DNA from: a virus
Virus record (IMG/VR): IMGVR_UViG_3300036806_000241
Span: 1 to 42,922 of that record
Reading direction: 5' to 3' (one strand)
Length of the DNA: 42,922 bases
Shown here: positions 1 to 16,131 of the stretch, one piece after another
Layout of the letters: every line of letters begins with the position of its first letter
Position numbering within the stretch: position 1 is the stretch's first letter
Translations under genes and position numbers: made by a program
The notes under the pieces: generated by a model
Told to the model about the DNA's origin: nothing
The model's database searches: none
Seen by the model: only the letters and a program-made list of their open reading frames with translations

Positions 1-738
1 ATCGCCTTCCACGGAGACACGAATCTCAAGCAAAAGTACCTCGAGCGGGTCAAGGCCCATGCACTCGCCGATGAGATCATTCACGGCAAATATTGGGAAG
101 AGGGTAAAGGCTGCGCGGTCGGTTGCACGATCCATGGAAGCAATCACAGCCGCTATGAAAATGAACTGGGCATTCCTCGAATCCTCGCTCGCTTGGAGGA
201 TCGGATCTTCGAGGGAATGCCAAACGGTGATTCCAAGGAGTTCCCGCTTCGATTCCTCTGCGCGATCGAGCCGGGCGCCGATCTATCTCTCGTCTGGTAT
301 CAGTTCGCGCACTGGTTGCTCGTCGATCCAGAGGATGGGGTGATCCAATTTTCCAAGACCGACAAAACGAAGAAGGCCATCAATCAGGTCGCCGAACTCT
401 ACGGTAGGGCCGCTCGAGGCCTTCGAGTTGAAAAACATGAGTGGGAAAGCGCTCATAAAACCGCCTACGCCGCCGACGCCGCCGCCTACGCCGCCGCCGC
501 CGCCGACGCCGCCGCCTACGCCGCCGCCACCGCCGACGCCGCCGCCTACGCCGCCTACGCCGCCTACGCCGCCGCCGCCGCCTACGCCGCCGCCGCCGCC
601 GCCTACGCCGCCTACGCCGCCGCCACCGCCGACGCCGCCGCCTACGCCGCCGCCCGTCGAAAAGCCTTCAGGCGGCAGGCCGACAAGCTGATCGAACTGC
701 TGGCAGCGGCTCCTGTACCGATCGAAGCGGCCGCGTGA
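1..738 (+). CDS. Phage protein of unknown function with Ala/Tyr/Asp repeat tail (5' partial)
   Basis: The reading frame is open from the first base, so the start lies just outside the window. The opening residues IAFHGDTNLKQKYLERV look like the very N-terminus of a widespread phage hypothetical family, so perhaps only a few codons are missing. The conserved-looking N-terminal part (about 150 residues) contains GKGCAVGCTIHG and HSRYENELGIPRILARLED. The C-terminal third is a low-complexity run built from AAAYAAAD-like units, followed by a basic end and a short helix (RRKAFRRQADKLIELLAAAP). No catalytic motif is recognised and the function is unknown. The Ala-rich tail would probably be helical and could mediate oligomerisation; that is inference. 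Its stop overlaps the GTG start of the next gene, so it belongs to the same operon as the sugar genes. Confidence 0.75.
   Translation: MAFHGDTNLKQKYLERVKAHALADEIIHGKYWEEGKGCAVGCTIHGSNHSRYENELGIPRILARLEDRIFEGMPNGDSKEFPLRFLCAIEPGADLSLVWYQFAHWLLVDPEDGVIQFSKTDKTKKAINQVAELYGRAARGLRVEKHEWESAHKTAYAADAAAYAAAAADAAAYAAATADAAAYAAYAAYAAAAAYAAAAAAYAAYAAATADAAAYAAARRKAFRRQADKLIELLAAAPVPIEAAA
463..654 (+). repeat. GCC-rich low-complexity repeat coding for A/Y/D/T units
   Basis: The run consists almost only of GCC codons interrupted by TAC, GAC and a few ACC codons. In frame it reads as alanine with regularly spaced tyrosine or aspartate. The near-perfect codon identity suggests recent expansion by slippage or unequal recombination. 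In the +1 frame the same bases give a proline/threonine run without a stop, which explains a spurious open frame at 428-691. Confidence 0.85.
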
Positions 739-1661
739 CGAAAAACGCGAGAAACGGGTATCTGATCACCGGGGGCACGGGATTCCTCGGGCGAGCGCTC
801 GTGCGCCGGCTGCTCACCGAGGGCGGGGTGTATCCCGAGCATCACCCCGAGCGCGTGTGCATCTACTCGCGCGGTGAGGCCGCCCAGGCGCTGATGCGCT
901 CCGAGCTCAAGGATGATCCGCGCCTTCGCTGGTTCATCGGGGATGTGCGCGATCGCGATCGCCTCGCCCAGGCGATGGAATCGGTGCGGATCGTCGTGCA
1001 CGCGGCGGCGTTGAAGCGCATCGAGGTCGGGATCTACAACCCCACCGAAATGGTGAAGACGAACGTGCTGGGGACCCAGAATGTCATCGAGGCGGCGATC
1101 GCGACCGACGTCGCGCGCGCGGTGCTCGTATCCACGGACAAGGCGGTCGAGCCCTTGAACTGTTATGGGGCGACGAAGCTCGTCGCGGAGAAGCTCTTCT
1201 TGAACGCCCAAGCGCTCGCGGGCGCCCACGGCCCGCGTTTCAGCGCTGTGCGCTACGGGCACGTCGCCGGCAGCACGGGGTCGGTCGTGCCGACCTGGCG
1301 AGCCGCGATCAAGGCGGGGGAGAAGCTGAGGATCACGCACCCGGATGCGACGCGCTTCTGGCTGAGCGCGAGGCAGGCCGTCGATCTCGTGCTGCAGGCC
1401 CTGGAGGCTGAAACCGGATCCCTTGTCGTCCCCGAGCTCCCCGCCTACCGCTTGGGTGATCTCCTCCTCACAATGACCCTGAAGGATGACGAAGCTCTGG
1501 GCGCGGATGTGGAGATCCTCGGAGCGCTGGGGCCCGATGAGAAGTTGCACGAATCGCTCCTGAGCCGACACGAGCCGGGCGGCCCGCGCGACTCCGATCG
1601 CGCACCGCGCCTGTCGATCGACGGCTTGCGCAAGCTCCTCGAGGAGGTCGAGGGCACATGA
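735..1661 (+). CDS. pseB: PseB-like UDP-N-acetylglucosamine 4,6-dehydratase (inverting)
   Basis: This is a short-chain dehydrogenase/reductase of 308 residues. It is expected to catalyse the first step of pseudaminic acid synthesis, dehydration and C5 inversion of UDP-GlcNAc. The Rossmann motif TGGTGFLG is at residues 12-19. VVHAAALKRIE, STDKAVEPLNCYGATK and RYGHVAGSTGSVVP all match the PseB/FlaA1 pattern. The catalytic set D135, K136, Y144 and K148 has the same spacing as D132/K133/Y141/K145 of Helicobacter PseB, from memory of that family. A GPDEKLHESLLS motif near the C-terminus is also typical. The GTG start overlaps the upstream stop by 4 bases, and the gene is followed with a 4-base overlap by an aminotransferase. 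A related dehydratase such as a CapD-type enzyme is possible, but the neighbours favour PseB. Confidence 0.88.
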   Translation: MTKNARNGYLITGGTGFLGRALVRRLLTEGGVYPEHHPERVCIYSRGEAAQALMRSELKDDPRLRWFIGDVRDRDRLAQAMESVRIVVHAAALKRIEVGIYNPTEMVKTNVLGTQNVIEAAIATDVARAVLVSTDKAVEPLNCYGATKLVAEKLFLNAQALAGAHGPRFSAVRYGHVAGSTGSVVPTWRAAIKAGEKLRITHPDATRFWLSARQAVDLVLQALEAETGSLVVPELPAYRLGDLLLTMTLKDDEALGADVEILGALGPDEKLHESLLSRHEPGGPRDSDRAPRLSIDGLRKLLEEVEGT

Positions 1662-2389
1662 GAACGGACGCTTTCAACGTGGTGCACGAGTTCGAGCGCG
1701 CGCTGTGCGACTACACGGGCGCTCCGCACTGCGTCGCGGTCTCGAGTTGCACCATGGCGCTCCTCCTCGCGATGGCGTGGCACCTCCGTAAGTTGCCCTC
1801 CGGCGACCAGATGGTCGTGTGGGCCCGGGAGAGAACGCTCCCAGAAATCGACCAGTGGACCCAAAAACACGGCGGGCGCAGCGAGATCGAAATCCCCAAG
1901 CGCACCTACGTGAGCGTGCCGATGAGCATCATCCACGCGGGAGGGTGGCCCGCGTTTCGGGACGAAGACTGGAAGGGCGCATACCGCCTTCATCCCCTGC
2001 CGATCTGGGATAGTGCGAGGCGGCTGCGCCGCGGCATGTATCACTGGTCGACCCGGTGGAACCCTCCCGCGAACGAGGACGCGCCCGCCCTTCACGGGGA
2101 CATGGTGTGCCTCTCCTTCCACTGGTCGAAGATCCTCGGCATCCAGCAAGGCGGGGCGATCCTGCTCACCGATCCCGAGGCTGACGCCTGGCTTCGCCGC
2201 GCTCGCTTCGATGGCCGGCGCGAGGGCGTTGCCCCGAAGGACGATGAGATACTGCTCGGCTGGCACGCTTATCTTAGCCCAGAAAGTGCGGCGGCCGGGC
2301 TGGTGCGCATGCAATTCCTGCCCGATGACAACGAGGATCTGCCCAACGACGATTATCCCGATCTGAGCAAAATGGAGGTGTTCAAGTGA
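1658..2389 (+). CDS. DegT/DnrJ/EryC1-type sugar aminotransferase, short (PseC role)
   Basis: A PLP-dependent fold type I aminotransferase of the DegT family, 243 residues against roughly 370-390 for usual PseC. The N-terminus has FERALCDYTGAPHCVAVSSCTMAL, split here as FERALCDYTGAPHC and VAVSSCTMAL, matching the substrate/PLP entry of the family. IWDSARRL around residue 118 supplies the aspartate that contacts the PLP ring nitrogen. SFHWSKILGIQQGGAILLTD contains K158, the likely Schiff-base lysine. Its place directly after PseB supports amination of the 4-keto sugar at C4. The C-terminal small domain is largely missing, although the gene is not visibly frameshifted: the downstream gene starts inside its stop. 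Whether the short form is active is uncertain. Confidence 0.78.
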   Translation: MRTDAFNVVHEFERALCDYTGAPHCVAVSSCTMALLLAMAWHLRKLPSGDQMVVWARERTLPEIDQWTQKHGGRSEIEIPKRTYVSVPMSIIHAGGWPAFRDEDWKGAYRLHPLPIWDSARRLRRGMYHWSTRWNPPANEDAPALHGDMVCLSFHWSKILGIQQGGAILLTDPEADAWLRRARFDGRREGVAPKDDEILLGWHAYLSPESAAAGLVRMQFLPDDNEDLPNDDYPDLSKMEVFK

Positions 2390-2625
2390 AACCCGAGGAG
2401 ATGCGAAAGGCCCTGGCCGCGAAGCAGCACCAACCGGAGATCGTCGAGAATTTCGTCGACATCTTCGCGAACAAGGATACCCACGCCCTGCTGCTGCGAT
2501 TTCGCAAAGCCACCGACAACTTTATTTTCAGCGAGGTGCAGGCCAAAGAGCACATCCTCGCCCTGATCAAGGCGGCCAAGGAAGCGGGGATCCACGTGAA
2601 ACAGGATCTGATGTGGGCCGAATAG
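2386..2625 (+). CDS. Small hypothetical protein
   Basis: A 79-residue, mostly helical and charged protein starting at a GTG that overlaps the aminotransferase stop by 4 bases. It shows no signal peptide, membrane segment or recognisable motif. Co-transcription with the sugar operon is clear from the overlap. The role is unknown. Confidence 0.6.
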   Translation: MKPEEMRKALAAKQHQPEIVENFVDIFANKDTHALLLRFRKATDNFIFSEVQAKEHILALIKAAKEAGIHVKQDLMWAE

Positions 2626-3044
2626 TCGTCCCCGGAGAGCCCTTCCCCGCGGAGGACCCGCTGCGCGATCAGCCCCCCGCGCCCGTCCTCTCGGGCACCT
2701 CCGGGGACAAGCCCACGCAGCTCGCCATCACCTCCGAGGCCGAGCGCGTGATCATCCGCTTCCCTGAGCCCAAGCTCTGGGTCGCCCTGGATGTCACCGG
2801 CGCCCGCAATCTCGCCGATGCGCTCAAGGCCGAGGCTGAGCGCGTGAAGCCCTCGGTGAGCGAGCACCGGATCCTCGATCGTGCCGCGAACCGCATGCGC
2901 GATCGGCTGGTGGTCCGGGTGAGCATCATGCTGAACAGCATGGACCGGAAGAAGAAGAAAACCTCCTACCAGGCCGGCGCGATCGTTGATCAGGTGCTCT
3001 CGGCCGTGAACGAGCTCGCCGATCGCTATCGGAGCATCCTGTGA
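2613..3044 (+). CDS. Hypothetical phage protein
   Basis: A 143-residue protein with a GTG start inside the end of the preceding gene. The N-terminal 35 residues are proline-rich and probably disordered. The middle has an alternating beta-like stretch (ERVIIRFPEPKLWVALDVTGARNLADAL) better read as two pieces, ERVIIRFPEPKLWVALDV and TGARNLADAL. The end is a long helix. No catalytic residues are recognised. It sits between sugar genes but looks like a general phage gene, so a role in the pathway is not supported. Confidence 0.6.
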   Translation: MGRIVVPGEPFPAEDPLRDQPPAPVLSGTSGDKPTQLAITSEAERVIIRFPEPKLWVALDVTGARNLADALKAEAERVKPSVSEHRILDRAANRMRDRLVVRVSIMLNSMDRKKKKTSYQAGAIVDQVLSAVNELADRYRSIL

Positions 3045-3496
3045 GACTCGTCAAGCTGACCGGCATGCCGCACCCGGACTACGGGAACGAATCCCGGCCG
3101 CTCTACATCGACGCCGAGCACGTGCTCTACGTCGAGCGCAGCTTCTCGGGCTGGATGAAAGAGGACGTCCAGGAACAATGGCGCCAGTCCCTGCAGCAGC
3201 TCTTCGAGGAGGTCGAGCGGGTGGGCGAGGACTTGAAGCGAATGCGCTCCTTCGAGGGCGAGGACCAGGTGAACAAGACCATGGACTTGCGCGATGCGAT
3301 CGGGTCGCTCTCGTCCGCCGCCAACCTGTGCGCGAGGTTCGCATCCAACCCAGCCTTCCACAAGCGGGTCGAGGTGACGACGATCGGCCTCGCCTATGAG
3401 GGTTCGGGCAATACGCTTGCGCGCGTGCACGTGATGGAGAGCCCCGATCAGGTCGCGCAGCTGATCTATCCCGATGATCCGAGGACGACATCATGA
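3041..3496 (+). CDS. Hypothetical protein with split FlbD-like beta edges
   Basis: 151 residues with a GTG start overlapping the upstream stop. The N-terminus (VKLTGMPHPDYG, then RPLYIDAEHVLYVER) and the C-terminus (VEVTTIGLAYEGS, then ARVHVMESPDQVAQLI) together resemble the short FlbD-type fold known from small phage and flagellar proteins. A helical insertion of about 70 residues separates the two halves. That resemblance is by eye only. No enzymatic motif is seen and the function is unknown. Confidence 0.6.
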   Translation: MRLVKLTGMPHPDYGNESRPLYIDAEHVLYVERSFSGWMKEDVQEQWRQSLQQLFEEVERVGEDLKRMRSFEGEDQVNKTMDLRDAIGSLSSAANLCARFASNPAFHKRVEVTTIGLAYEGSGNTLARVHVMESPDQVAQLIYPDDPRTTS

Positions 3497-4134
3497 GTAA
3501 AAGCAAAACGACGAAGAAACCGCTCAAGGTGGCGATCATCGCGGGCGGCGCGAAGGAAGCGAATTTTCTTGACCCCAAGACGAGCGGGCAGTGGGAGGTA
3601 TGGGGCCTGAACGCGATCCGCCCGAACGAGCGTCTGCGCGGGTCCTGGGTGCGTCCGATCACCTGGGCGCGCATGTTCAACCTGCACCGCTTCGAGCACC
3701 TGAACCGCGACTGCCCGGAATACATCTACACGGATTCCGAGTGGGCGAAGCGCAACCGCGAGGTGCCCTTCTACGTGGTCGACAGCTGGCACGGGCTGCT
3801 CCCGAACGAGCACCTCTTTCCGATCGCGGACCTGCAAAGCCTTCCCCGGGGCGGGCTCTACCATGCGGGCAGCCTCGACATGCTGGTCGCCTATGCCGTG
3901 CACCTCGGGGCGGTGGCAATCTCCTTGCATGGGATCGGCCTCTCGCTAGATAGCCACCGCGATGAGCCGATCTCGGCTCGCGCGTGCCTTGAATACTGGT
4001 GCGGGGTGGCCGAAGGGCGCGGCCGCAACGTGAGCGCCGCCCCCGACTGTGACATCTTCTACCAGTATCACCTGGTGCGCTCGAGGAGCGTCTACGGGTT
4101 CGACGACGTGCAGCTGATCGAGCGCCGGCCGTGA
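3493..4134 (+). CDS. Rossmann-like MptE/DUF115-type protein, candidate glycosyltransferase
   Basis: 213 residues. After a basic N-terminal tail comes a beta-strand/glycine motif KVAIIAGGAKEANF, then WEVWGLNAIRP, a histidine-rich middle (MFNLHRFEHLN) and a later GGLYHAGSLDMLVAYAV, AISLHGIGLSL block. The order of motifs matches the protein encoded at 13425-14525 (IVGSAPSS, WAIWGCSPGA, FWTSTMAYMLALAI, IGLWGVDMA), so the two look like paralogues. This architecture recalls the MptE-like/DUF115 group, which includes Maf flagellin nonulosonate transferases, and bacterial sialyltransferases of the Cst-II type. Lying directly in front of the CMP-sugar synthetase gene with a 4-base overlap, it is a candidate user of CMP-pseudaminic acid. 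The family assignment is tentative and the substrate is inference. Confidence 0.6.
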   Translation: MSKSKTTKKPLKVAIIAGGAKEANFLDPKTSGQWEVWGLNAIRPNERLRGSWVRPITWARMFNLHRFEHLNRDCPEYIYTDSEWAKRNREVPFYVVDSWHGLLPNEHLFPIADLQSLPRGGLYHAGSLDMLVAYAVHLGAVAISLHGIGLSLDSHRDEPISARACLEYWCGVAEGRGRNVSAAPDCDIFYQYHLVRSRSVYGFDDVQLIERRP

Positions 4135-4724
4135 ACGTCGCCATCATCCCGGCGCGCGGAGGCAGCAGGAGGATCCCGCGGAAGAACATCCGCGATTTCC
4201 ACGGCAAGCCGATCATCGCCTACTCGATCGAGAAGGCGCTCACGTGCGGCGTGTTCGACCTCGTCTACGTGAGCACCGAGGACAATGAGATCGACCTCGT
4301 CGCCAGAAGATACGGCGCGGAAACCTTGCGCCGCGATCTTGCACTCGCGCGCGATGAAGTGGGAACGCAGGAGGTGATGCGCTCGGAGCTGGGCTATATC
4401 GTGTCGCAGGCAGTAGGGAAATCGTCAATCGAATACGCTTGCTGCATCTACCCATGCGCTCCGATGCTCAGCAGGGGCGATCTGTGGCGAGGTCTGGAAG
4501 CCCTGAAGCAGGCCAACGCCTGGTACGCCTTCTCCGTGCTCACGCGGCCGCTCGCGGATGCCGGGATGTTCTACTGGGGCCAAGCGACGAGCTTCCTCGA
4601 GGGGGCTTTCTTGTACGGACCGCGTTCGGTGATGATCCCGATTCCCGATGAGCGCGGGATCGACATCAATACGCCCGAGGACTGGGCGAGGGCGGAAGCC
4701 ATGTCCGCGGCCCTGAAACCATGA
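4131..4724 (+). CDS. pseF: PseF-like acylneuraminate/pseudaminate cytidylyltransferase
   Basis: A 197-residue nucleotidyltransferase expected to activate the nonulosonic acid with CTP, giving the CMP-sugar. The N-terminal nucleotide-binding motif is IIPARGGSRRIPRKNI, followed by GKPIIAYSIEKAL and VYVSTEDNEI. CCIYPCAPML and the DAGMFYWG segment fit the PseF/NeuA pattern, and DINTPEDWARAE is the usual C-terminal signature. It is about 30 residues shorter than typical PseF, with the shortening in the middle. The GTG start lies within the upstream stop and the stop overlaps the methylase start. Specificity for pseudaminic rather than neuraminic or legionaminic acid rests on its neighbours. Confidence 0.88.
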   Translation: MNVAIIPARGGSRRIPRKNIRDFHGKPIIAYSIEKALTCGVFDLVYVSTEDNEIDLVARRYGAETLRRDLALARDEVGTQEVMRSELGYIVSQAVGKSSIEYACCIYPCAPMLSRGDLWRGLEALKQANAWYAFSVLTRPLADAGMFYWGQATSFLEGAFLYGPRSVMIPIPDERGIDINTPEDWARAEAMSAALKP

Positions 4725-5335
4725 ATCCGCAAGAAGAGCTCTGGGCGGGGAAATTCGGGGACGAGTACCAGCGACGCTCACCCGGGGATGTCGAGGCGAA
4801 CCGCGTGCTGTTCGAGCACGTCCTGCGGCGCCTGTCGATTCGCTCGGTGATCGAGTTCGGCGCAGGAGTCGGGAACAACCTGCTCGCGCTCCGCGAGCTG
4901 CTGCCAGAGGTCGCCCTAGCAGCCATCGAGATCAATCTGCTTGCCGCGGAGGAGATCCGTCTGAAACGCCTAGCCGTCGACATTTTCGTAGGATCAGCAC
5001 TCACCCTCAATCCCTGGGCGAACCCCGGAAGATCGACGTGGGACCTGGTGCTCACGAAGGGCTTCCTGATCCACATCCCCCCGGATGACCTGCCCATGGT
5101 CTACGAGAAGATGCACCAAGCGAGCCAGCGCTACATCATGGTGGCGGAGTACTACAACCCGAAACCGGTCGCCATCCCCTACCGCGGGCAGGAACAGGCC
5201 TTGTGGAAGCGCGATTTCGCGGGCGAGCTCCTCGATCGCTATACCGACCTCTGTCTGATCGACTATGGTTTCGTGTACCACCGGGATCCGCATCCCCAGG
5301 ACGACCTCACCTGGTTCTTGATGGAAAAGCGATGA
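4721..5335 (+). CDS. Pseudaminic acid biosynthesis-associated methyltransferase
   Basis: 204 residues with a class I SAM-dependent methyltransferase fold. Motif I is VIEFGAGVGNN at about residues 43-53, with the acidic ribose-binding position in AAIEIN. WDLVLTKGFLIHIPPDDL matches the post-motif region of the pseudaminic-acid-associated methylase family (TIGR03587, named from memory). MVAEYYNPKPVAIPYRG is another stretch typical of that family. Such enzymes are found in pseudaminic acid clusters and are thought to methylate the sugar or a precursor; the exact position is not established here. ATG start with a 4-base overlap after pseF. Confidence 0.85.
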   Translation: MNPQEELWAGKFGDEYQRRSPGDVEANRVLFEHVLRRLSIRSVIEFGAGVGNNLLALRELLPEVALAAIEINLLAAEEIRLKRLAVDIFVGSALTLNPWANPGRSTWDLVLTKGFLIHIPPDDLPMVYEKMHQASQRYIMVAEYYNPKPVAIPYRGQEQALWKRDFAGELLDRYTDLCLIDYGFVYHRDPHPQDDLTWFLMEKR

Positions 5336-5487
5336 GGCCGACGAAGAGTCCGGAGGAGATCGTGCGCGAGGTGGCCAAACGCATCAAACAGGATGCTCCA
5401 CACGCCGATCCCATTGTCGTCGAGGCGCTGATGAGCCGCTTACGCGCGAAATTGCGTCGACTCCAACTCGAGGATCATCCGAAATGA
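5332..5487 (+). CDS. Very small hypothetical protein (51 aa)
   Basis: The start was chosen at the ATG that overlaps the methylase stop (ATGA); the longer open frame upstream lies inside the methylase. The product is a highly charged helical peptide, beginning MRPTKSPEEIVREVAKRI and rich in Arg/Lys. Its own stop overlaps the next gene's ATG, so it is cleanly fitted into the operon. No function can be proposed. Confidence 0.5.
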   Translation: MRPTKSPEEIVREVAKRIKQDAPHADPIVVEALMSRLRAKLRRLQLEDHPK

Positions 5488-6599
5488 ACCGCTGCCGCCT
5501 GTGCGTGATCCCGGACACGCGCCCGGACACACCCTTCGAGGACGGGGTGTGCTCGGCGTGCCGCTCCTTCGCGCGCCGGCCGAGGATCGACTGGGAAGCG
5601 AGGCTCTTGCACTTCCGTGAGGTGATCCGCCGCGCCTGGCAGGATTACCCGAGCGCTCACCCCTACGATTGCATCGTCGCGAGCTCAGGGGGCAAGGACA
5701 GCCACTGGCAGGTGCTCAAAGTGCTCGAGCTCGGCTACCGGCCGCTCGTGGTGACCGCCTCGACCTGCATGCTCACCCCGATCGGGCGAGCGAATATCGA
5801 CAACCTCGCGCGCTTCGCCCCGACGATCGAAGTGACCCCCAACCGCACGGTGCGCGCGAAGCTGAATAAGTTGGGGCTTGAGTTGGTGGGGGATATCTCC
5901 TGGCCCGAGCACGCCACGATCTTCAACGCTCCCTGGTCGATCGCCGCGGCGATGCAAATCCCGGTCGTGCTCTACGGGGAGAACCCCCAGGAGGCCTACG
6001 GCGGGCCGGCGGGCACCGAGGACGCCCGCCAGATGACCCGGCGCTGGGTGAGCGAATTCGGTGGGTTCCTTGGCCTACGCGCGCAGGACCTGGTGGGGAA
6101 GGAGGATCTCAGCGCGGATGATCTTCGGCCCTACACGCCCCTTGATCCCGCCGCAGTCGAGGCTGCAAGAGTCCAGGCCCATTTCATGGGGGCGTATTTC
6201 GAATGGGATTCCGAGCGCAACGCCACGGTCGCGGCCGAGCACGGGATGGTGCAGGAGCTGCCCTGTGAGGCGAACTGGTGGAAGGCCGAGAACCTGGACA
6301 ACGCGATGACCGGCCTGCACGATCACGGGTGCTATCGCAAGTATGGCTACGGGCGCGCCGCCGCGCAGCTCTCGGTGGATATCCGAAACGGCAGGATGAC
6401 GCGGGAGCGCGCGATCAGTATCGTGCAGGGGCGAGATGGCATCTTTCCCTGGGACTATGCCGACGTCGCGTTCGATGACGTGCTCGATCGCCTGCAAATG
6501 CCCGAGAAACAGCTGCTCAGGGTGCTCGATCGTTTCACGAACTGGGAGCTCTTTGGCAAGATCGATAACGCTCGCCCGATCCTGAAGGAGTTCCTCTGA
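5484..6599 (+). CDS. N-acetyl-sugar amidotransferase (PseA/WbpG type)
   Basis: 371 residues. The N-terminus carries a four-cysteine zinc-like site (C4, C7, C23, C26). A PP-loop ATP pyrophosphatase motif SSGGKDS is at residues 67-73, followed by VLKVLELGYRPLVV. GENPQEAYGGPAGTED and the DHGCYRKYGYGR block are characteristic of the N-acetyl sugar amidotransferase family (WbpG, PseA). In those systems the enzyme converts an N-acetyl group into an acetamidino group, with ammonia channelled from a HisH/HisF-like pair. A HisF-like gene follows immediately, consistent with this, but no HisH was seen. The expected product would be an acetamidino form of the nonulosonic acid. Length is normal for the family and no key residue appears missing. 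Confidence 0.88.
   Translation: MNRCRLCVIPDTRPDTPFEDGVCSACRSFARRPRIDWEARLLHFREVIRRAWQDYPSAHPYDCIVASSGGKDSHWQVLKVLELGYRPLVVTASTCMLTPIGRANIDNLARFAPTIEVTPNRTVRAKLNKLGLELVGDISWPEHATIFNAPWSIAAAMQIPVVLYGENPQEAYGGPAGTEDARQMTRRWVSEFGGFLGLRAQDLVGKEDLSADDLRPYTPLDPAAVEAARVQAHFMGAYFEWDSERNATVAAEHGMVQELPCEANWWKAENLDNAMTGLHDHGCYRKYGYGRAAAQLSVDIRNGRMTRERAISIVQGRDGIFPWDYADVAFDDVLDRLQMPEKQLLRVLDRFTNWELFGKIDNARPILKEFL
6585..6598 (+). promoter_or_regulatory. Strong ribosome binding site deciding a CTG start
   Basis: AAGGAG at 6585-6590 sits five bases before a CTG at 6596 that overlaps the upstream TGA stop (CTGA). No ATG, GTG or TTG with comparable spacing exists before the conserved HisF N-terminus. Starting at the later GTG at 6626 would remove the first beta strand (KRIIPT). 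Confidence 0.65.
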
Positions 6600-7330
6600 C
6601 CCTCGCGAAGCGCATCATTCCCACGGTGCTCTGCCGCGGGCGCGTGATGGTGAAGGGGACGCGCTTCAACGCCTGGCGCTCCGTGGGGCTCGCCGCCCAG
6701 GCGGTAAGGATCCACGCGGCGCGTGGGGTGGACGAGGTGTGCCTCCTTGACATCGCAGCGACCCCCGAGGGCCGGCTGATCGATCCGGAGCTCGTGAGCG
6801 AGTTGGCCGATTCCCTCTTCGTGCCCCTTACCGTGGGAGGAGGTATCAGGACGGCCGAGGACGCGCGCAGGCTCCTTCGCGCCGGCGCCGACAAGGTAGT
6901 GGTCGGGACCGCGGGCCCCAGGGCGATCTCCGAGATCTCGATGAAGGTGGGGAGCCAAGCGGTCGTCGCCGCTTGCGACGACCGGAACGGCCGGGCCCAC
7001 GTGCGCTGCGGCAACGCGTCCACGCACCAAAGTGCCCTGGGCTGGGCGAGGAGCTGCTACCAGCACGGGGCGGGAGAGATCCTCCTCACTGCGATCGACT
7101 TGGAGGGCACGATGCAGGGCTACGATCTGTACCTGATCGGGCGAATCAGCGAGGCACTCCCGATTCCGGTCATCGCCCACGGGGGGGCGGGCACCTACCA
7201 GCACCTGCTCGAGGCGCTCGAAGTCGGGGCGGATGCGGTGGCGGCGGGGGCCATGTTTCAGTTCACCGATCAGACCCCGCGGGGCGCGGCCGCGTATCTG
7301 TGCGAGCACGGCCTTGAAGTGCGGGTATGA
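6596..7330 (+). CDS. HisF-like cyclase-family protein of the acetamidino-sugar type (HisF2)
   Basis: About 244 residues with a (beta/alpha)8-barrel pattern: AKRIIPTVL, EVCLLDIAATPEGRLID, PLTVGGGIRTAEDARRLL, GADKVVVGTAG, GAGEILLTAIDLEGTMQGYD, PIPVIAHGGAG and GADAVAAGAMF. These are the phosphate-binding and core loops of HisF. The first catalytic aspartate of true HisF (in the ACLDV strand) is replaced by Leu in PTVL, while the second (in AACDDR) is kept. This matches the HisF2/AglZ subgroup that delivers ammonia for acetamidino sugars and not histidine synthesis. The start is placed at CTG 6596 because the conserved first strand precedes the GTG at 6626 and a good Shine-Dalgarno sequence is present. 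The HisH glutaminase partner is not in the window; host HisH or free ammonia may serve. Confidence 0.82.
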   Translation: MTLAKRIIPTVLCRGRVMVKGTRFNAWRSVGLAAQAVRIHAARGVDEVCLLDIAATPEGRLIDPELVSELADSLFVPLTVGGGIRTAEDARRLLRAGADKVVVGTAGPRAISEISMKVGSQAVVAACDDRNGRAHVRCGNASTHQSALGWARSCYQHGAGEILLTAIDLEGTMQGYDLYLIGRISEALPIPVIAHGGAGTYQHLLEALEVGADAVAAGAMFQFTDQTPRGAAAYLCEHGLEVRV

Positions 7331-7509
7331 TCAGGCATCACCCCGCGGAGGGCGCCAACGTAGCGAGAATCGATGATTCCGACCCCGCGCATCCCTTCGT
7401 GATCCCGTTCTTGTGCGCTCGGTGCGGGAGCCCCGCCTGCTACGGCCGCGGGCCGTTGTGGGCTTGCAGCAGCTGTTGGCAGTGGACCGGACTCTGGAGG
7501 AGGCAATAA
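7327..7509 (+). CDS. Small putative zinc-ribbon protein
   Basis: 60 residues, with an ATG overlapping the HisF2 stop. The pairs C30-x2-C33 and C47-x2-C50, with an additional C38, form a zinc-ribbon-like arrangement within LCARCGSPACYGRGPLWACSSCW, read as LCARCGSPACY and LWACSSCW. A DNA, RNA or protein contact role is possible but cannot be assigned. It is separated from the next gene by only the strong GGAGGAGG ribosome binding site region. Confidence 0.55.
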   Translation: MIRHHPAEGANVARIDDSDPAHPFVIPFLCARCGSPACYGRGPLWACSSCWQWTGLWRRQ

Positions 7510-8019
7510 ATGGAACACCAGAAAGTGAGCCTCATCGCGGTCAAGGGACAGCCGCCCGGCCACGGAGTAGTCGAATTCCTCTGGGAATTGCTGAAGGAAC
7601 GCGAGGCCGAGCGCTGGACGAACATCAGCCACCAGAACATGCCGAGCATGCAAGAGCACCTGGATTACGTCGGTAACCATCCCTACCGTGCGTGGTATCT
7701 GATCCAGAACACGACTGCGGAACTCGTGGGCTCGATCAGTCTCTCCCCGCGAAACGAGATCGGCATCCACATCGCCCGCTTGCATCGCCGGCACGGGTAT
7801 GCGAGCGCAGCGATCAAGGAGCTCCTGCGAACCCACGGGGCGCTTCCGGGAGTCCCCGGGGTCAGTTCCGATGAATTTCTCGCCAACATCAACCCGAGGA
7901 ATGCCGCCTCGATCGCGCTCTTCGAGCGCTTGGGCGGGATTCCCTTACAGATCACTTTCCGAATCCCGAAGCTGCACGAGGTGAAAGATGCCGAAGTCCG
8001 AACGCAAGCCCAGGCATAA
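7510..8019 (+). CDS. GNAT-family acetyltransferase (possible PseH role)
   Basis: 169 residues. A central ELVGSISLSPRNEIGIHI strand pair is followed by RRHGYASAAIKELL, the acetyl-CoA pyrophosphate-binding region of the GNAT fold. FLANINPRNAASIALFERLGG then supplies the conserved late strand and helix. In the pseudaminic acid pathway PseH, a GNAT enzyme, N-acetylates the 4-amino sugar. Position between HisF2 and PseI fits that role, but the first 60 residues are not clearly PseH-like, so the specificity is inferred from context. An excellent ribosome binding site (GGAGGAGG) precedes the ATG. A different acceptor, such as a host protein, cannot be excluded. Confidence 0.75.
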   Translation: MEHQKVSLIAVKGQPPGHGVVEFLWELLKEREAERWTNISHQNMPSMQEHLDYVGNHPYRAWYLIQNTTAELVGSISLSPRNEIGIHIARLHRRHGYASAAIKELLRTHGALPGVPGVSSDEFLANINPRNAASIALFERLGGIPLQITFRIPKLHEVKDAEVRTQAQA

Positions 8020-8503
8020 GGACGCTCTGGATAGTTTCGCCACCGCGCCCCTTGATCGGGTGCTGCAGCTCGTCCTCTGGAAGCTGCGACACAAGAACCC
8101 GGAGATGGCGGTCCTCATCACCGAGGGCGATATCACCGGGTTCGAGCAGTCGATGAGCTACCAGGGGGTGGTGCCCGCGATCCTGATCGAGCGCCCACAA
8201 GGCCGCCCGGCACACGCCGGTGCCCGCGGGAAGGTGGTGAGCGTGGCGCCCTTCTCGGGGGAACCCCCCCGTCCCTTCGTCATCGTCGCCGTGGTGGAGC
8301 GGGGGAAGAAGAACGCGATCCGGGCGATCGAGAACAACCAGGATGACTTCGAGCGGGGGGATCTTGCCCGGCGGATCGCGCTTGCCCGCGGGAAGGCTGC
8401 CACGCTCGCGCAGCAGGTGAGGAACGCCGCCGCAAGCGGGGATTTCACCTCCGGGACCCTGGAGGACGCCGCTGAAGCGCTCGAAGTGCTCGCCAAAGCA
8501 TGA
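7988..8503 (+). CDS. Hypothetical phage protein
   Basis: 171 residues, with an ATG located 32 bases inside the acetyltransferase gene. The N-terminus is basic (MPKSERKPRHKDALD), followed by mixed alpha/beta segments (ILIERPQGRPAHAG, VIVAVVERGKKN) and a helical C-terminal half. No known motif is visible. Its stop overlaps the pseI start. Confidence 0.6.
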   Translation: MPKSERKPRHKDALDSFATAPLDRVLQLVLWKLRHKNPEMAVLITEGDITGFEQSMSYQGVVPAILIERPQGRPAHAGARGKVVSVAPFSGEPPRPFVIVAVVERGKKNAIRAIENNQDDFERGDLARRIALARGKAATLAQQVRNAAASGDFTSGTLEDAAEALEVLAKA

Positions 8504-9522
8504 GCGAATACCCGTTCTTCGTCGCGGAGATGGGGGCGAACCACAACCATGATCTTGATCTGGCGCTCGCGATTGCCGATGCGGCCAAGTCCGTCGGCGC
8601 GGATGCCCTGAAGCTGCAGACCTACACCCCCGAGTGCATGGTGGTGCGCGAGCAGAAGGCGCTTGCGACCGGCCCCTGGGCGGGGATAAGCCTGTGGGAG
8701 CTCTACGAGCGCGCCGCGCTCCCCTGGTCCTGGCACCAGAGGATCTTCGAGCACTGTCACTCGATCGGGCTCCCCTGCTTCAGCAGCCCCTTCTCGATCG
8801 AAGCGGTGGATCTCCTTGAGCGCCTGGGTTGCCCGATGTACAAGATCGCGAGCTTCGAGATCCTCGACCTCGAGCTGATCGAGCGCTGCGCCAAGACCGG
8901 ACAGCCCCTCGTCATTTCAACGGGCATGGCGACGATGTTGGAGATCGGGGATGCGATCGAGGCCGCGCGCGCCGGCGGGTGCGTGGGGGAGCAGCTGACG
9001 CTCCTCAAGTGCACGAGCTCTTACCCCGCTCCCGCCTCCGAGGCGAACCTGCGCACGATGCCAGACCTTGGCAAGTTCGGCTGCCGGGTCGGGTTGTCTG
9101 ACCACACCCGAGGCGTGGGGGTCGCCGTGGCGGCGGCGCTCGGCGGCGCCACCATGATCGAGCGGCATTTCACCCTGGGGGTGGCCGATAAAGGCCCCGA
9201 TGTGCCCTTTTCGAGCTCCCCGCACCAGTTCAGGCAGATGATCGAGGCGGTGCACGACGCGATCGACGCCCAGGGCTCGGGGCGCTTGGGGCCCACGGCC
9301 TCGGAAATGCCCATGCTTGAGCTGCGGCGCACCTTGCGGGCCCTGCGGGGGATCAGGGAGGGCGAAGTCTTCACCCGGCAGAACATCGGTGCGCGGCGCC
9401 CCGCTGGAGGCCTGCCACCGCGCTTCATCTCCCGCTTCCTGGGAGGCTTTGCCCCCCACGCCATCCAGGCTGGGGAAGCCCTGACCGAGGACACTGTTCC
9501 ACGTGAAACCGGCTCGAGGTGA
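8500..9522 (+). CDS. pseI: PseI/NeuB-type nonulosonic acid synthase (pseudaminic acid synthase)
   Basis: 340 residues comprising the NeuB TIM barrel (about 1-270) and a C-terminal SAF/antifreeze-like domain (about 280-340). The enzyme condenses a 6-carbon amino sugar with phosphoenolpyruvate. Seen motifs are VAEMGANHNHDLDLAL, GADALKLQTYTPE, FSSPFSIEAVDLLE, YKIASFEI, VISTGMAT, LLKCTSSYPAP, GLSDHTRG and MIERHFTL; the last two hold the metal-binding histidines of NeuB enzymes. LWELYERAALPW is closer to PseI (LYxxAxTPW) than to NeuB. Length is standard and no key residue is missing. The gene overlaps the small terminase start by 20 bases, so sugar synthesis and packaging genes share a transcript. 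Confidence 0.92.
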   Translation: MSEYPFFVAEMGANHNHDLDLALAIADAAKSVGADALKLQTYTPECMVVREQKALATGPWAGISLWELYERAALPWSWHQRIFEHCHSIGLPCFSSPFSIEAVDLLERLGCPMYKIASFEILDLELIERCAKTGQPLVISTGMATMLEIGDAIEAARAGGCVGEQLTLLKCTSSYPAPASEANLRTMPDLGKFGCRVGLSDHTRGVGVAVAAALGGATMIERHFTLGVADKGPDVPFSSSPHQFRQMIEAVHDAIDAQGSGRLGPTASEMPMLELRRTLRALRGIREGEVFTRQNIGARRPAGGLPPRFISRFLGGFAPHAIQAGEALTEDTVPRETGSR

Positions 9523-10111
9523 GCGCCGTTACGCGGTCTTCGCGCAGGAATACGCGAAGCACCACAACGCCACCCGGGCGGCGATCACCGCCGGCTACAG
9601 CCCCAAGAGCGCAAACTCCCAGGGCAGTAGGTTGTTGACCCATGCCAAGGTTTTGGAGATTCTGAGCGCGCTCGAAGCCAAAGCGCTCGAGCAAGCCGGG
9701 ATCGATACCGTAGCGCTTCTGCGGGAATCCAAGCGGATCGGGTTCTCCGATCCGCGCAAGCTCTTCCACCCCGATGGCCGCCCCAAGCAGCCCCACGAGT
9801 TGGATGACGATACGGCGGCCGCGGTCTGCGGGATCGAACGCATGGTCGAATACAGGGAGTCCGTCGGGAAGAACGGCAAGCCGCGCAAGCAGCGCGTCGT
9901 CACCTTCCGGTATAAGCTCCTTGACAAGAACCCGACCCACGAGCGCCTCTTCAAGCACAAGGGCCTCTTCAAGCAGGAGGTGCTGCCGCCCCTGCCCGGG
10001 GATATCGAGGTGGAGGAGGTGAGCGCTCTGGATCTCGCGCGGCGTATCGCCTTCATCCTCGTCGTCGGGGCACGACACAAGAAAGAGGCCGCTTCGGGCA
10101 AACGCAAATGA
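9503..10111 (+). CDS. terS: Terminase small subunit
   Basis: 202 residues of Terminase_2 type. The N-terminal helix-turn-helix region (RRYAVFAQEYAKHHNATRAA, ITAGYSPKSANSQGSRLL) is the usual DNA-recognition part that binds the packaging site. The C-terminal part is basic and low in recognisable motifs. The GTG start lies within the end of pseI. The large subunit gene is not adjacent but begins at 14530, an unusual separation of over 4 kb. Confidence 0.85.
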   Translation: MKPARGERRYAVFAQEYAKHHNATRAAITAGYSPKSANSQGSRLLTHAKVLEILSALEAKALEQAGIDTVALLRESKRIGFSDPRKLFHPDGRPKQPHELDDDTAAAVCGIERMVEYRESVGKNGKPRKQRVVTFRYKLLDKNPTHERLFKHKGLFKQEVLPPLPGDIEVEEVSALDLARRIAFILVVGARHKKEAASGKRK

Positions 10112-10124
10112 AGGGGATTCTCCG

Positions 10125-11765: not shown

Positions 11766-11776
11766 GGAGCCCACCG

Positions 11777-12872: not shown

Positions 12873-13370
12873 ATGGGTATCGCCCCTGCAAACTTGCAGG
12901 CCATCACCAAAGAGGGCCTGCGCAACCAAGGCATCACGAACGTCTACGGCCGGCGCGCCTCGATCGACATCGCGGGCTACGAGGTCGGCGAGCAGGACAC
13001 GAGAACGCCGATCGACGTCGTGAGCACGACCGCCCCCACATCCCTCGCACCCAACGGCTTCTCGCTCCTGGCCTGCACCGCGGCCTCGAGCGCGATCTAC
13101 ACGATGAACACGGCCGTGGGCTCGGTCTACAAGCAGATCACCCAGGTGAGCAGCTCCACCTTGGGCTACGTGGTGCAGTTCGGTGCGAACGCTCTGATCG
13201 TCACTTCGGCGGGCTCGAGCTTCAACCAGATCACGTTCCAGGGGGTCGGCCACACGGCGAACCTCGCGTGCGTGGTCCCCAGTTCAGGCCAGGGATCGAG
13301 CGCGAACACAGGTCCGGTGTGGATCTCCTGCTCGCCCGCTTCACCCGGCCTCGCGTTCTCGACCTTCTAG
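12873..13370 (+). CDS. Putative structural protein, beta-rich
   Basis: 165 residues following an AAGGAG ribosome binding site. Rich in Ser, Thr and Ala with beta segments (FGANALIVTSAGSSFNQITF) and several cysteines. No recognised domain. Location between other small head genes suggests a virion component. The function is unknown. Confidence 0.55.
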   Translation: MGIAPANLQAITKEGLRNQGITNVYGRRASIDIAGYEVGEQDTRTPIDVVSTTAPTSLAPNGFSLLACTAASSAIYTMNTAVGSVYKQITQVSSSTLGYVVQFGANALIVTSAGSSFNQITFQGVGHTANLACVVPSSGQGSSANTGPVWISCSPASPGLAFSTF

Positions 13371-13424
13371 GAGGCCCTGAGAACCCGTAGCAAAACCGTG
13401 CAAGATCAGAAAGCGAGGTTACAG

Positions 13425-14525
13425 ATGCAAGCAGCAGCAAAACCCCTGGTGCTGGGGCCCCGGGGGTTCGACAAGATCGCGATCGTCGGGAGCGCCCCGA
13501 GCTCCGTGCAGCTGGGACCCTGGGGGGACAAGTCCTGGGCGATCTGGGGATGTTCCCCCGGCGCCTACGGGATGATTCCGCCCAACCGATCCGACGTCTG
13601 GTTCGAGGTGCACCGCTGGGAACCCCCGGCGCTCGGGGATCCGAGGAATCCCGCGAACAAGCCCTGGTTCTCCCCGGAGTACACGCGCTTCCTCGAGCTC
13701 TTCGAGGGTCCGGTGTACATGTCGGCGCCCGTCCCCACCGTGGGGAACTGCGTCGTCTACCCCTTCGATGAGATGAACGCCGAGTTCGGGCCCTACTTCT
13801 GGACCTCGACCATGGCCTACATGCTCGCCCTCGCGATCAAGGTGCGTCCGCGCGCAATCGGCCTGTGGGGGGTGGACATGGCGCACGGCACCGAGTACGT
13901 GTTCCAGCGCCCCGCCTGCCAGCATTTCCTGGGGATCGCGGCGTCCTTGGGGATCCAGATCGTGCTGCCTCCGGAATCCGATCTCGAACAGCCGCACACC
14001 CCCTACGGGTTCATCGAGTACCACCCGCGCCACCAGAAGCTGCTGCGCCGGCGCGAGGAGCTGAATTCGCAGCTCGTGCATCACCAGAACACCATGACGG
14101 CGAGCTCGAAGCAGGCCGACATCATGCGCGGGGCGATCGACAACCTCGACTACGTCCTGAACACGTGGGCGGGGGATATCGACGTGGGCTTGCGCTTCTC
14201 CGACGCCATCTGCCATTCCGCGGTGCTGGGCGGGCGGCCCGCGCCCCTGGTCGCCGCCGCCCACCGCTTCGAGCAATCGGCCGTGCCCTTGCCCCTTACG
14301 CTTGACCCGCCCCTTGTGCCGCTGGATCGCAAGCAATGGGATGCGCCTGCTCCCGTTCCCGCGCGCCTCGCAGTCTCGGAGCTGATCGGCCAGCTGATGG
14401 AGCAGGATCCCGACACGCGCGGCCGTATCGCCCAGGCGGTGCTCCCGAAGCCTCCTACACCATTCGCCCCGATTCCGCCCGCTCCGATCCCGGCGAAGAA
14501 ACGCAAGCACAAGAAAGGGGGCTAG
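13425..14525 (+). CDS. Rossmann-like MptE/sialyltransferase-type protein with coiled-coil C-terminal region
   Basis: 366 residues. The ATG at 13425 was chosen because GAGG lies six bases upstream; a GTG at 13398 in the same frame has no clear ribosome binding site. The N-terminal domain has KIAIVGSAPSSVQLGPWGDK, WAIWGCSPGAYG, VWFEVHRWEP, STMAYMLALAIKVRPRAIGL and LWGVDMAHGTEYVFQR, resembling MptE-like/DUF115 and Cst-II-type sialyltransferase folds. The C-terminal 170 residues hold a helical stretch (RRREELNSQLVHHQNTMTAS) and a Pro/Lys-rich end. It parallels the smaller protein at 3493-4134. It sits immediately before the large terminase, so it may be a virion-linked glycosyltransferase; that role is inference. 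Confidence 0.62.
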   Translation: MQAAAKPLVLGPRGFDKIAIVGSAPSSVQLGPWGDKSWAIWGCSPGAYGMIPPNRSDVWFEVHRWEPPALGDPRNPANKPWFSPEYTRFLELFEGPVYMSAPVPTVGNCVVYPFDEMNAEFGPYFWTSTMAYMLALAIKVRPRAIGLWGVDMAHGTEYVFQRPACQHFLGIAASLGIQIVLPPESDLEQPHTPYGFIEYHPRHQKLLRRREELNSQLVHHQNTMTASSKQADIMRGAIDNLDYVLNTWAGDIDVGLRFSDAICHSAVLGGRPAPLVAAAHRFEQSAVPLPLTLDPPLVPLDRKQWDAPAPVPARLAVSELIGQLMEQDPDTRGRIAQAVLPKPPTPFAPIPPAPIPAKKRKHKKGG

Positions 14526-14529
14526 AACC

Positions 14530-16131
14530 GTGGGGATGCTCGATGAACTGATCGAGCAGGTCGGGGTCCTTCCTCCCCAAGGCAAGCGCAAGCTCGAGCG
14601 CGAGGTGATGCAGCGCACGAAGCGCATGGCCTGGGTCCCCAACCCGGGGTTTCAGACCGAGGCCTACTTCTCGGAGGCTGATGAAACCGGGTGCGGGGGC
14701 GAGGCGGGCCCGGGCAAGACCGACCTCGCCCTCGGGCTCTCCCTGAACGAGCACCGGCGAGCGTTGCTGCTGCGGCGCACCCACAAGGAGGCCGATAAGC
14801 TGCAGCCGAGGCTCGAGGAGATCCTGAAGACGCGCGAGGGCTGGAACGGCAAGGGGTTCTGGACGCTCCCCGGTGGCCGGCGGATCGACATCGGGGGCTG
14901 CCAGCTCGAATCCGACAAGCAGAACTACAAGGGCGACCCCCACGATCTGATCGTCTTCGACCAAGTGGAGGACTTCACGCAGAGCCAGTTCGAGTTCATC
15001 ATCGCCTGGAACCGCTCGACCATCCCGGGGCAACGCTGCCGCATCATGACGACGCTCAACCCGCCCACGCAAGCCGCCGGCATGTGGGTGATGAGCCGCT
15101 ACGGGCCCTGGCTCGATCCGAAGCACCCGCATCCGGCAAAGTCAGGGGAGCTTCGCTGGTACACGACGATCGATGCCAAGGACACCGAGGTCGACGGCCC
15201 GGGCCCGCACCTCGTGGAGGGCCGAAAGATCATGGCGAAGAGCCGCACCTTCATCCGCGGCCACCTCTGGGAGAACCCCGATCTCGCGGGCACGGGCTAC
15301 GAGGGGCGTCTGGCCGGCCTCCCCGAGGAGCTGCGCGCGGCGTACATGCAGGGCTCGTTCGAAGCGTCGCTGCGCGATGCCCCGAACCAGGTGATCCCCA
15401 CGACCTGGGTGAAGCTCGCGCAGAAGCGCTGGACAGAGCTCCCGCCCGTGAACGTGCCGATGTGCTCGATGGGCGTGGACTGCTCGGGGGGCGGGCGCGA
15501 TCCCCTCATCCTCGCGCGGCGCTACGACGGTTGGTACGACACGCTGGTCAAGGTCCCGGGAAAGGAGATCCCGGTGGATCGGATCGGCAGCTACTGTGCG
15601 GGCATCATCGTCAGCTACCGCGAGGACAAGGCGATGGTGGTGATCGACATGGGCGGGGGATACGGGAGCTCGACTTACGAGCATTGCAACGCGAACGACA
15701 TCGAATCCTTCGCCTACAAGGGCGCCGAGCGCACCGATCGCCGCAGCGCCGACAAGCGCCTGCGCTTCGTGAACGTGCGAAGCGCCGCGCACTGGATGTT
15801 CCGCGAGGCGCTCGATCCCGATCAGCCCGGCGGCTCCCCGATCGCCCTCCCCGATGATCCGGAGCTCGTGGCTGATCTCACCACGCCGACCTTCGAGGCG
15901 ACCCCCAATGGGATCAAGATCGAGGAGAAGGAGAAGGTGACCGAGCGCCTGGGGCGATCAACCGACAGCGGGGACGCCGTCATCATGTCCTGGTGGGCGG
16001 GTCCCAAAGAGATCAATTCGGCTCTGGACTGGGCAACCCGCGCCGAGGAGCAGGGGTTGCATCGCGGCCCGGCGCGGCCCGGAAAGGTGATCCTGGGACG
16101 CGAGGCCGCGCAGCGCGCGCGCGGACGCTGA
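14530..16131 (+). CDS. terL: Terminase large subunit
   Basis: 533 residues with the two expected domains. In the ATPase, Walker A is GEAGPGKT at residues 57-64. The Walker B position reads LIVFDQVEDF, with D144 followed by Gln where the catalytic Glu is usual; E147 lies two positions later. TTLNPP is the coupling motif. In the nuclease, MGVDCSGGG, VVIDMGGGYG and STDSGDAVIMSWW provide three acidic metal ligands. It drives DNA into the prohead and cuts it. GTG start with GGGGG eight bases upstream; an in-frame ATG lies six bases later. The stop overlaps the next ATG. Confidence 0.93.
   Translation: MGMLDELIEQVGVLPPQGKRKLEREVMQRTKRMAWVPNPGFQTEAYFSEADETGCGGEAGPGKTDLALGLSLNEHRRALLLRRTHKEADKLQPRLEEILKTREGWNGKGFWTLPGGRRIDIGGCQLESDKQNYKGDPHDLIVFDQVEDFTQSQFEFIIAWNRSTIPGQRCRIMTTLNPPTQAAGMWVMSRYGPWLDPKHPHPAKSGELRWYTTIDAKDTEVDGPGPHLVEGRKIMAKSRTFIRGHLWENPDLAGTGYEGRLAGLPEELRAAYMQGSFEASLRDAPNQVIPTTWVKLAQKRWTELPPVNVPMCSMGVDCSGGGRDPLILARRYDGWYDTLVKVPGKEIPVDRIGSYCAGIIVSYREDKAMVVIDMGGGYGSSTYEHCNANDIESFAYKGAERTDRRSADKRLRFVNVRSAAHWMFREALDPDQPGGSPIALPDDPELVADLTTPTFEATPNGIKIEEKEKVTERLGRSTDSGDAVIMSWWAGPKEINSALDWATRAEEQGLHRGPARPGKVILGREAAQRARGR

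Follow-up and report, generated by a model that had tools for sequence, protein, structure and literature searches.

Pseudaminic acid synthesis genes and Maf-like proteins beside podovirus packaging genes point to a possible phage-borne glycosylation module

What would a phage do with a bacterial sugar pathway set among its packaging genes, and which protein would use the sugar? The question is raised by an IMG/VR-type virus record of 42,922 bases (IMGVR_UViG_3300036806_000241, analysed over its whole length and called the window here), in which genes for the synthesis of a nonulosonic acid, pseudaminic acid (Pse), run directly into the small terminase gene. Among phages with a related large terminase (TerL), we find that a synthase of the NeuB family accompanies a gene whose product has a predicted fold like that of the Maf glycosyltransferases. 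The window has two such Maf-like genes (3493-4134 and 13398-14525), a likely output of the pathway that the initial annotation of this DNA overlooked. We propose, with about even confidence for and against, that donor pathway, Maf-like transferase and a probable virion acceptor together form a nonulosonic acid glycosylation module carried by the phage.

The association was examined in two separately drawn sets, one of 80 loci from at least 547 confirmed TerL relatives and one of 80 loci from 127 relatives of the Maf-like protein (relatives are cited below by our L and G labels for loci and contigs). Our main count uses the 23 of the 80 TerL-selected loci that have at least 8 kb before TerL: of 11 contigs that contain the Maf-like gene 10 also have a NeuB-family synthase, whereas none of the 12 that lack it does, even over the whole record (Fisher p 9.6e-6, uncorrected for kinship). 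The exception among the 11, L164, has no NeuB but does have the amidotransferase WbuX. Taken over all 80 TerL-selected loci, a set with many short ones, the NeuB counts are 18 of 36 in the presence of the Maf-like gene and 0 of 44 in its absence. The TerL tree identifies L150/L151 and L206/L210 as near-copies among the 23, and over its 43 rows there are 6 changes in the presence of the Maf-like gene and 8 in that of NeuB. From the Maf-selected set 49 of the 80 loci were searched, the remainder being 8 loci from records that had already been covered and 23 from short contigs, which were left out; NeuB was found in 23 of the 49, and in 19 of the 24 records of at least 30 kb. Since the two genes lie 18-27 kb apart in five of these 19 records, adjacency is not the whole reason for their co-occurrence.

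A further comparison rests on 18 long contigs (49-56 kb), selected as long and as containing (11) or missing (7) both the Maf-like gene and NeuB, so that the split for these two genes is built in; outside the 18 are long contigs that have the Maf-like gene and no NeuB (G033, G049 and G055, for example). The genes for WbuX, HisF2 and the GNAT acetyltransferase are found in 11/11 module contigs and 0/7 of the others, PseF in 10/11, and PseB, the aminotransferase and the methylase in 9/11 each, every one of these again absent from the other seven; TerL and connector are present in 18/18. Open reading frames (ORFs) were read per 20-kb piece, and a gene lying across a piece edge can escape such counts. 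The best reading of this pattern is that the module is gained and lost as a unit.

In the window the block occupies 735-9522 (Table 1) in the order PseB, PseC-like aminotransferase, Maf-like ORF, PseF, methylase, WbuX, HisF2, GNAT, ORF 7988 and PseI. Four-base start/stop overlaps occur at 735/738, 1658/1661, 2386/2389, 3041/3044, 3493/3496, 4131/4134, 4721/4724, 5484/5487, 7327/7330 and 8500/8503, and the end of PseI (9522) runs past the start of the small terminase gene (9503). The block is thus real as first described, with every named gene in place, on the plus strand, mostly with 4-base overlaps and running into the small terminase; because the same gene set recurs in separate contigs, it is more than chance. 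Curated NCBIfam cut-offs are passed by PseI, the methylase and WbuX and missed by PseB, PseF and HisF2, each of which still scores best in that family. The unnamed genes lying among the Pse genes, the Maf-like ORF being one, match no Pfam family at E≤0.001.

Table 1. Genes of the window considered in the text, with the evidence for each assignment
Feature	Coordinates	Strand	Evidence or remark
PseB-like UDP-GlcNAc 4,6-dehydratase (inverting)	735..1661	+	TIGR03589, 283 bits, under cut-off 408; best family
Minimal DegT/PseC-like aminotransferase, 243 aa	1658..2389	+	Pfam DegT, 61 bits (weak)
Maf/GT42-fold protein within operon, second candidate nonulosonate transferase	3493..4134	+	AF2 model, structure match
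PseF-like CMP-pseudaminate synthetase, short form	4131..4724	+	TIGR03584, 183 bits, under cut-off 205.7
Pseudaminic acid biosynthesis-associated methylase	4721..5335	+	TIGR03587, 219 bits, over cut-off 112
WbuX-type N-acetyl sugar amidotransferase	5484..6599	+	TIGR03573, 244.6 bits, over cut-off 203.2
HisF2/WbuZ-type protein	6596..7330	+	TIGR03572, 203 bits, under cut-off 300; HisF model near at 195
GNAT acetyltransferase	7510..8019	+	PF13302 (Acetyltransf_3), 40.7 bits; PseH role by context only
Conserved protein, seen in close relatives	7988..8503	+	No PHROG at E≤0.001, no Pfam over cut-off
PseI pseudaminic acid synthase (NeuB family) with SAF domain	8500..9522	+	TIGR03586, 360.4 bits, over cut-off 340.25
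Small terminase subunit	9503..10111	+	Terminase_2, 78 bits
Ser/Thr-rich small protein, candidate acceptor, N-terminal TN-VYGR tag	12873..13370	+	Directly before Maf-like gene
Maf/GT42-fold protein with C-terminal long helix, main candidate nonulosonate transferase	13398..14525	+	AF2 model; just before TerL
Large terminase subunit TerL	14530..16131	+	phrog_979, 89 bits
T7-type head-tail connector (podovirus marker)	16851..18515	+	phrog_332, 172 bits

The candidate transferases were recognised by structure prediction. The AF2 model of the Maf-like protein within the operon (pTM 0.77, pLDDT 74.5, from 11 sequences) has Maf 5mu5 as its best VIA match (Z 11.3, rmsd 3.2 Å over 161 residues), followed by the sialyltransferases 9c08, CstI and CstII (Z about 10-10.6) and an MptE-type HPPK (10.0), and Foldseek ranks CstII first (E 4.6e-4). 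The model of the Maf-like protein beside TerL, confident over residues ~25-200, likewise matches Maf 5mu5 best (Z 11.3, rmsd 2.8 Å over 153 residues), and on both models the CstI/CstII fold scores below Maf (Z 8.7-10.3). The two proteins are distant homologues, both queries matching a single gene in L021 and L025. Such predicted folds point to Maf/GT42 and do not decide function. Both proteins might instead be MptE-like, thiamine-pyrophosphokinase-like or structural, leaving the sugar to host transferases or as a free metabolite. This possibility is favoured by related folds that score nearly as high as Maf (thiamine pyrophosphokinase Z 10.6 and HPPK 10.2 on the protein beside TerL; with SteA, a range of 9.1-10.6) and by the absence of a sequence-level family match: neither ORF matches the Maf/MptE-like or GT42 families of Pfam at E≤1, and sequence searches against the PDB gave no match for one Maf-like family and, for the other, nothing better than CstII at E 1.3. 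(A separate PF06002 (GT42) search gave no match, but its control was silent everywhere, and the result is hence uninformative.) We nevertheless consider it improbable, as Maf is the best structural match for both models and the Maf-like gene tracks NeuB-family synthases in both of the sets described above. A Maf-like homologue also lies directly before the terminase genes of Microcystis phage Mvi-Yong1342-1 (PP496355.1 34781-35584, L033), where it is annotated as a methyltransferase; PP496355.1 is not among the PseI matches in public phage records.

Directly ahead of the Maf-like gene beside TerL lies the gene for a small protein with 23% Ser+Thr, fourth among the window ORFs listed. Its family is present in 11/11 module-bearing long contigs and 0/7 others. 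In 10 of those 11 contigs it is the immediate upstream neighbour of the Maf-like gene, and in G009 it lies ahead of that gene by ~0.65 kb. By profile the family stands just before the Maf-like gene in 84 of 113 loci, a count that is partly circular, the profile having been built from 59 of those ORFs, and whose strict distance rule misses some loci (L016). Our Ser/Thr survey of upstream ORFs took the richest candidate per locus, which biases its fractions upward at loci with several candidates. The window protein has no match in Pfam, PHROG or public phage records; a match to a WD40 chain profile (1.5e-4) was set aside as composition-driven.

From gene content, family assignments, conservation, co-occurrence and predicted folds we infer a scheme of catalysis, acceptor, timing, virion location and purpose. 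PseB, the minimal PseC-like aminotransferase, GNAT, PseI and PseF would produce CMP-pseudaminate, and WbuX, HisF2 and the methylase would add acetamidino and/or methyl groups to the sugar. Next, the Maf-like protein beside TerL would pass the sugar to protein Ser/Thr residues, as Maf does with flagellin, and the second Maf-like protein, found in the operon of close relatives, may act as a further transferase. The most likely acceptor would be the Ser/Thr-rich product of 12873-13370. Made alongside the packaging genes, such a system would give part of each new virion a covering of an acidic, bacterial-type sugar. Whether phage or host is decorated was left open in the initial annotation; the location of one Maf-like gene next to TerL, together with its Ser/Thr-rich neighbour, suggests that the target may be the phage.

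The place before TerL may itself be exchangeable. Alignment of the Ser/Thr-rich family reveals a conserved N-terminal tag of the kind I-x-TS-x-(H/Y)-GRR-x-GL, and in module-free relatives the gene before TerL often opens with the same kind of tag and then differs. Four module-free loci match the family profile weakly (22-30 bits), a lectin-like domain (PF13385) appears in 2 of 7 tag-bearing alternative proteins scanned (E 0.009 and 0.011, below cut-off), and an eighth alternative protein, that of L150, has no visible tag. We tentatively suggest, as a possibility that we hold with less than even confidence, a swappable surface slot: phages with the module would have a Ser/Thr-rich protein glycosylated by the phage Maf-like enzyme with self-made Pse or legionaminic acid (Leg), while those without it would have the same type of tag followed by a larger, weakly lectin-like domain. 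On this view the phage would either display sugars or bind them, and would vary its sugar through exchange of tailoring genes or of the entire pathway.

Taken one by one, the enzymes agree with the product type first assigned, a Pse pathway with genes for acetamidino and methyl tailoring. PseI is nearest among solved structures to a pseudaminic acid synthase (8h2c, 6.7e-65, versus ~1e-41 for N-acetylneuraminate synthases), and PseB to a UDP-GlcNAc C6 dehydratase (2gn4, 3e-59). The rival NeuB model gives PseI 272 bits, and its SAF domain scores 26 bits. E10, K38, K115, H202, E221 and H223 of PseI are invariant in 16/16 phage members, and we take these residues to correspond to the catalytic residues of NeuB. 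Comparison with characterised enzymes is less clear for PseF: KDO models reach at most 45 bits, yet the closest solved CMP-synthetase is named NeuA (9ftb), so the structure search does not settle its sugar. The aminotransferase is without the C-terminal part of its solved relatives, and the PseC model yields 34 bits over 33 residues, short of a full-length PseC; K158, D118, S153 and H155 are invariant in 11/11 phage members, and the protein is short wherever its full length is available. In WbuX the SGGKDS motif and Cys 4, 7, 23 and 26 are invariant in 13 members. HisF2 probably starts at CTG 6596 rather than GTG 6626, as judged from an upstream AAGGAG and the overlap with the WbuX stop; a start at GTG 6626 would remove the RIIP stretch. 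No NCBIfam model matches the GNAT protein at E≤0.01.

Scanning viral contigs with PseI, ORF 3493 and WbuX as queries returned the block from separate contigs. In the gene-order check suggested with the initial annotation, the nearest relatives with enough sequence (L002, L004, L013/L016 and L017) keep the same order from PseB to PseI, including ORF 3493 and ORF 7988; the L003 contig begins after DegT, and L022 keeps the order minus those two ORFs. L007, L021 and L025 have most of the genes in a different order, with no PseF match in L021 and L025. The block was also described as part of the core genome rather than recent cargo. It does appear to be an old lineage module, common to phages with 42-67% TerL identity to the window, but it is no invariant core, since related TerL and connector genes occur without it (in 12 of the 23 TerL-selected contigs with enough upstream DNA and in the 7 long contigs). 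In L029, whose TerL is 53% identical in its best segment, the same position ahead of the Maf-like gene and TerL is occupied by a legionaminic-type set, with genes best fitting LegB, LegC, NeuC, NeuB and NeuD, all under cut-off, and a GT2 glycosyltransferase; L014 has LegB-like, NeuB and PseF-like genes. These two gene sets suggest that possession of some nonulosonic acid, rather than of one particular kind, is what is kept. Two side observations concern these relatives: the L029 TerL (8717-11164) is a single 815-aa frame whose two parts matching the window TerL are split by nearly 1 kb, an in-frame insert that is possibly an intein, and L016 has a gene for DpdA (DeoxyPurine in DNA protein A; 14368-15102) right after PseI, from which some of these phages may modify DNA too.

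Selection was assessed as dN/dS, the ratio of nonsynonymous to synonymous substitution rates, in seven sequence pairs, with many values saturated; it is below 1 in every unsaturated comparison. In L049/L052 it is 0.059 for PseB and WbuX, 0.066 for HisF2, 0.076 for PseI, 0.20-0.21 for PseF and the methylase, 0.010 for the Maf-like gene, 0.041 for the Ser/Thr-rich protein and 0.026 for TerL. The aminotransferase of this pair is 54% identical, versus 90-93% for PseB, WbuX, HisF2 and PseI, as if exchanged. Values for WbuX are 0.11 in L003/L012 and 0.14 in L002/L003, and for PseI 0.21 and 0.19 respectively. In these two pairs identity is 86-90% for WbuX and just 35-38% for the methylase; this tailoring gene therefore appears either to vary or to have been exchanged.

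Several results weigh against a phage glycosylation module. A sign test corrected for kinship has just 4 supported pairs, not enough to reach significance (p 0.125); NeuB goes along with the Maf-like gene in an average of 3.5 of them and against it in none. Five of the 24 long Maf-like-bearing records are without NeuB. PseB, the aminotransferase and the methylase are unseen in 2/11 module contigs each and PseF in 1/11, some blocks lying near a contig end, and the module genes are mostly neighbours, so that single events could delete several at once. The competing folds and missing Pfam matches of the Maf-like proteins belong here as well. As for the acceptor, 21202-21564 and 34707-35156 are richer in Ser/Thr, and the family of the former occurs without the module.

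Other adverse points concern the integrity of the genes. The aminotransferase is shortened, and PseF lacks a stretch that L002, L003, L004 and L012 possess in the alignment; L012 (same record as G008) has no PseB and retains the aminotransferase only as a 41-residue remnant. The PseI of L006, L021, L014 and L029 stops short of the SAF domain, unlike the window's. Higher dN/dS values were obtained for the methylase (0.75 in L003/L012, 0.64 in L002/L003), the aminotransferase (0.34 in L049/L052), GNAT (0.47) and PseI (0.39), and a stop codon falls inside the GNAT match in one pair and inside the PseI match in another, neither of which could be scored; the NeuB domain itself is stop-free in both records. 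Taken to its extreme, a block with short DegT and PseF, losses in L012 and a methylase and aminotransferase that diverge fast in some pairs could be recent or decaying cargo without function. We regard this as very improbable: the block is shared across the TerL range given above, the catalytic-type residues of DegT are kept in all 11 members, no unsaturated dN/dS reaches 1, and the block's GC content of 0.63-0.67 lies inside the range of the remaining window. Recent bacterial cargo in particular is disfavoured by the spread among phages and by selection.

The last adverse points are missing steps. PseG was found in 0/23 records including the window (control positive in 8/14 genomes), many of which, perhaps the window too, are fragments, and a HisH-type GATase (PF00117, HisH2) in 0/23, with the control positive in 14/14. 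Calling the pathway near-complete, as was done at first, obscures these two negatives and the shortness of the PseC-like protein and PseF. Host enzymes may complete the pathway, and the PseG and glutaminase steps are probably lent by the host or carried out by something unrecognised. Among module-only families of the 18 long contigs no PseG substitute emerged: those in at least 6 module contigs, window-gene families aside, are nearly always antisense or other-frame overlaps of known genes, and for three without such overlaps, each in 5/11 module contigs, a Pfam scan yielded AAA_24. (The relative G003 also has a DUF4942 protein and an SPFH/Band 7 protein, at 3691-4587 and 7181-8116 of L217, both outside the virion genes.)

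A missing PseG suggests a host that makes Pse itself, which leads to the main rival of virion decoration: the phage would make or alter CMP-Pse so as to change the capsule, lipopolysaccharide or flagellar glycans of its host, with superinfection block or receptor change as the outcome and a host acceptor for the Maf-like protein. There are reported precedents, namely prophage epaA/epaB turning Pse into 8-epiPse in the Acinetobacter capsule (PMC12053666) and phage O-acetyltransferases acting on capsule nonulosonic acids (PMC6586298), and the GT2 glycosyltransferase of L029 would fit as well. We consider host-surface modification unlikely, though a serious alternative, because Pfam and NCBIfam recognise no polymerase, flippase or other glycosyltransferase in the window block and because the Maf-like gene is tied to the adjacent small phage protein and TerL.

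All genes discussed here are on the plus strand of the window, whose GC content is 0.59-0.69. The podovirus virion genes that Pfam and PHROG recognise in it comprise small and large terminase, T7-type connector, major head protein and tail tube proteins, and phrog_332, phrog_394 and phrog_376 (connector and tail tube genes) mark a T7-type podovirus morphology; a tRNA scan of the whole window found none. Just before PseB, ORF 193-738 has a long Ala/Tyr/Asp repeat (AAYAAYAAA...) in its second half, and L013 matches its first 90 residues only (82%). Between the small terminase gene and a tail-fibre-like gene lies a C5-cytosine DNA methylase gene (10403-11197) with no match in the 18 long relatives. 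The tail-fibre-like protein (11722-12840) has an endosialidase-type chaperone domain, Peptidase_S74, and sits between the Pse block and the Maf-like gene. ORF 16730-18037, matched in module contigs only, shares DNA with the connector gene in a different reading frame and is likely spurious.

Across 50,697 public phage records WbuX and the methylase have no match. There are 3 distant matches for PseI and a single one for PseF, with both present in a record filed as Moritella viscosa, and PseB alone has 83, all below 60% identity. A pattern-based scan for the minimal DegT over a bacterial and archaeal genome collection of 84,980 species returned one contig, L032, from a metagenome-assembled genome labelled Thiobacillaceae, which also holds PseB, PseF and methylase genes; this is too little for a host call. 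Among the papers listed by literature searches that mostly did not extend to subscription journals, none reports a phage-encoded Pse/Leg synthesis pathway or phage Maf. If our proposal is correct, viruses of bacteria own a nonulosonic acid protein glycosylation system in which donor pathway, transferase and acceptor are linked, and can make themselves a sialic-acid-like coat, which would bear on adsorption and on how particles are recognised by defences and by immune systems. It would also offer compact enzymes for sugar chemistry (a 200-240 aa aminotransferase, a short Maf), and why some close relatives are module-free would become testable.

How does the locus compare with known systems? The Pse pathway proceeds through PseB-C-H-G-I-F, with PseA and HisF/HisH-type tailoring. 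The window resembles it in its PseB, PseI, PseF, WbuX-type and HisF2 homologues and its TIGR03587 methylase, and differs in having no recognised PseG or HisH2, in its minimal DegT in place of a full PseC and in a GNAT taken as PseH by context. Mycobacteriophages glycosylate their virions with phage glycosyltransferases, and we know of no nonulosonic acid synthesis genes in that system; the likeness lies in phage glycosyltransferase genes and a proposed decoration of the particle. Mycobacteriophage virion glycosylation is also suggested in a genome note (PMC11256854). Like EpaA/EpaB of Acinetobacter prophages, the window genes are phage genes that would act on pseudaminic acid, but EpaA/EpaB are reported to convert Pse for the host capsule (PMC12053666), whereas the window has synthesis and transferase-like genes in its packaging region. 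According to PMC11339370, Maf enzymes use Pse or Leg derivatives as donors and have a central domain similar to Cst-II. As in bacterial flagellin O-glycosylation by Maf, the phage combines a nonulosonic acid pathway, a Maf-fold transferase candidate and a Ser/Thr-rich acceptor candidate. Unlike that system, its genes stand beside a podovirus terminase, its acceptor candidate is not flagellin, and its Maf-like proteins, at 213 and 375 aa, are too short for the three domains of 5mu5.

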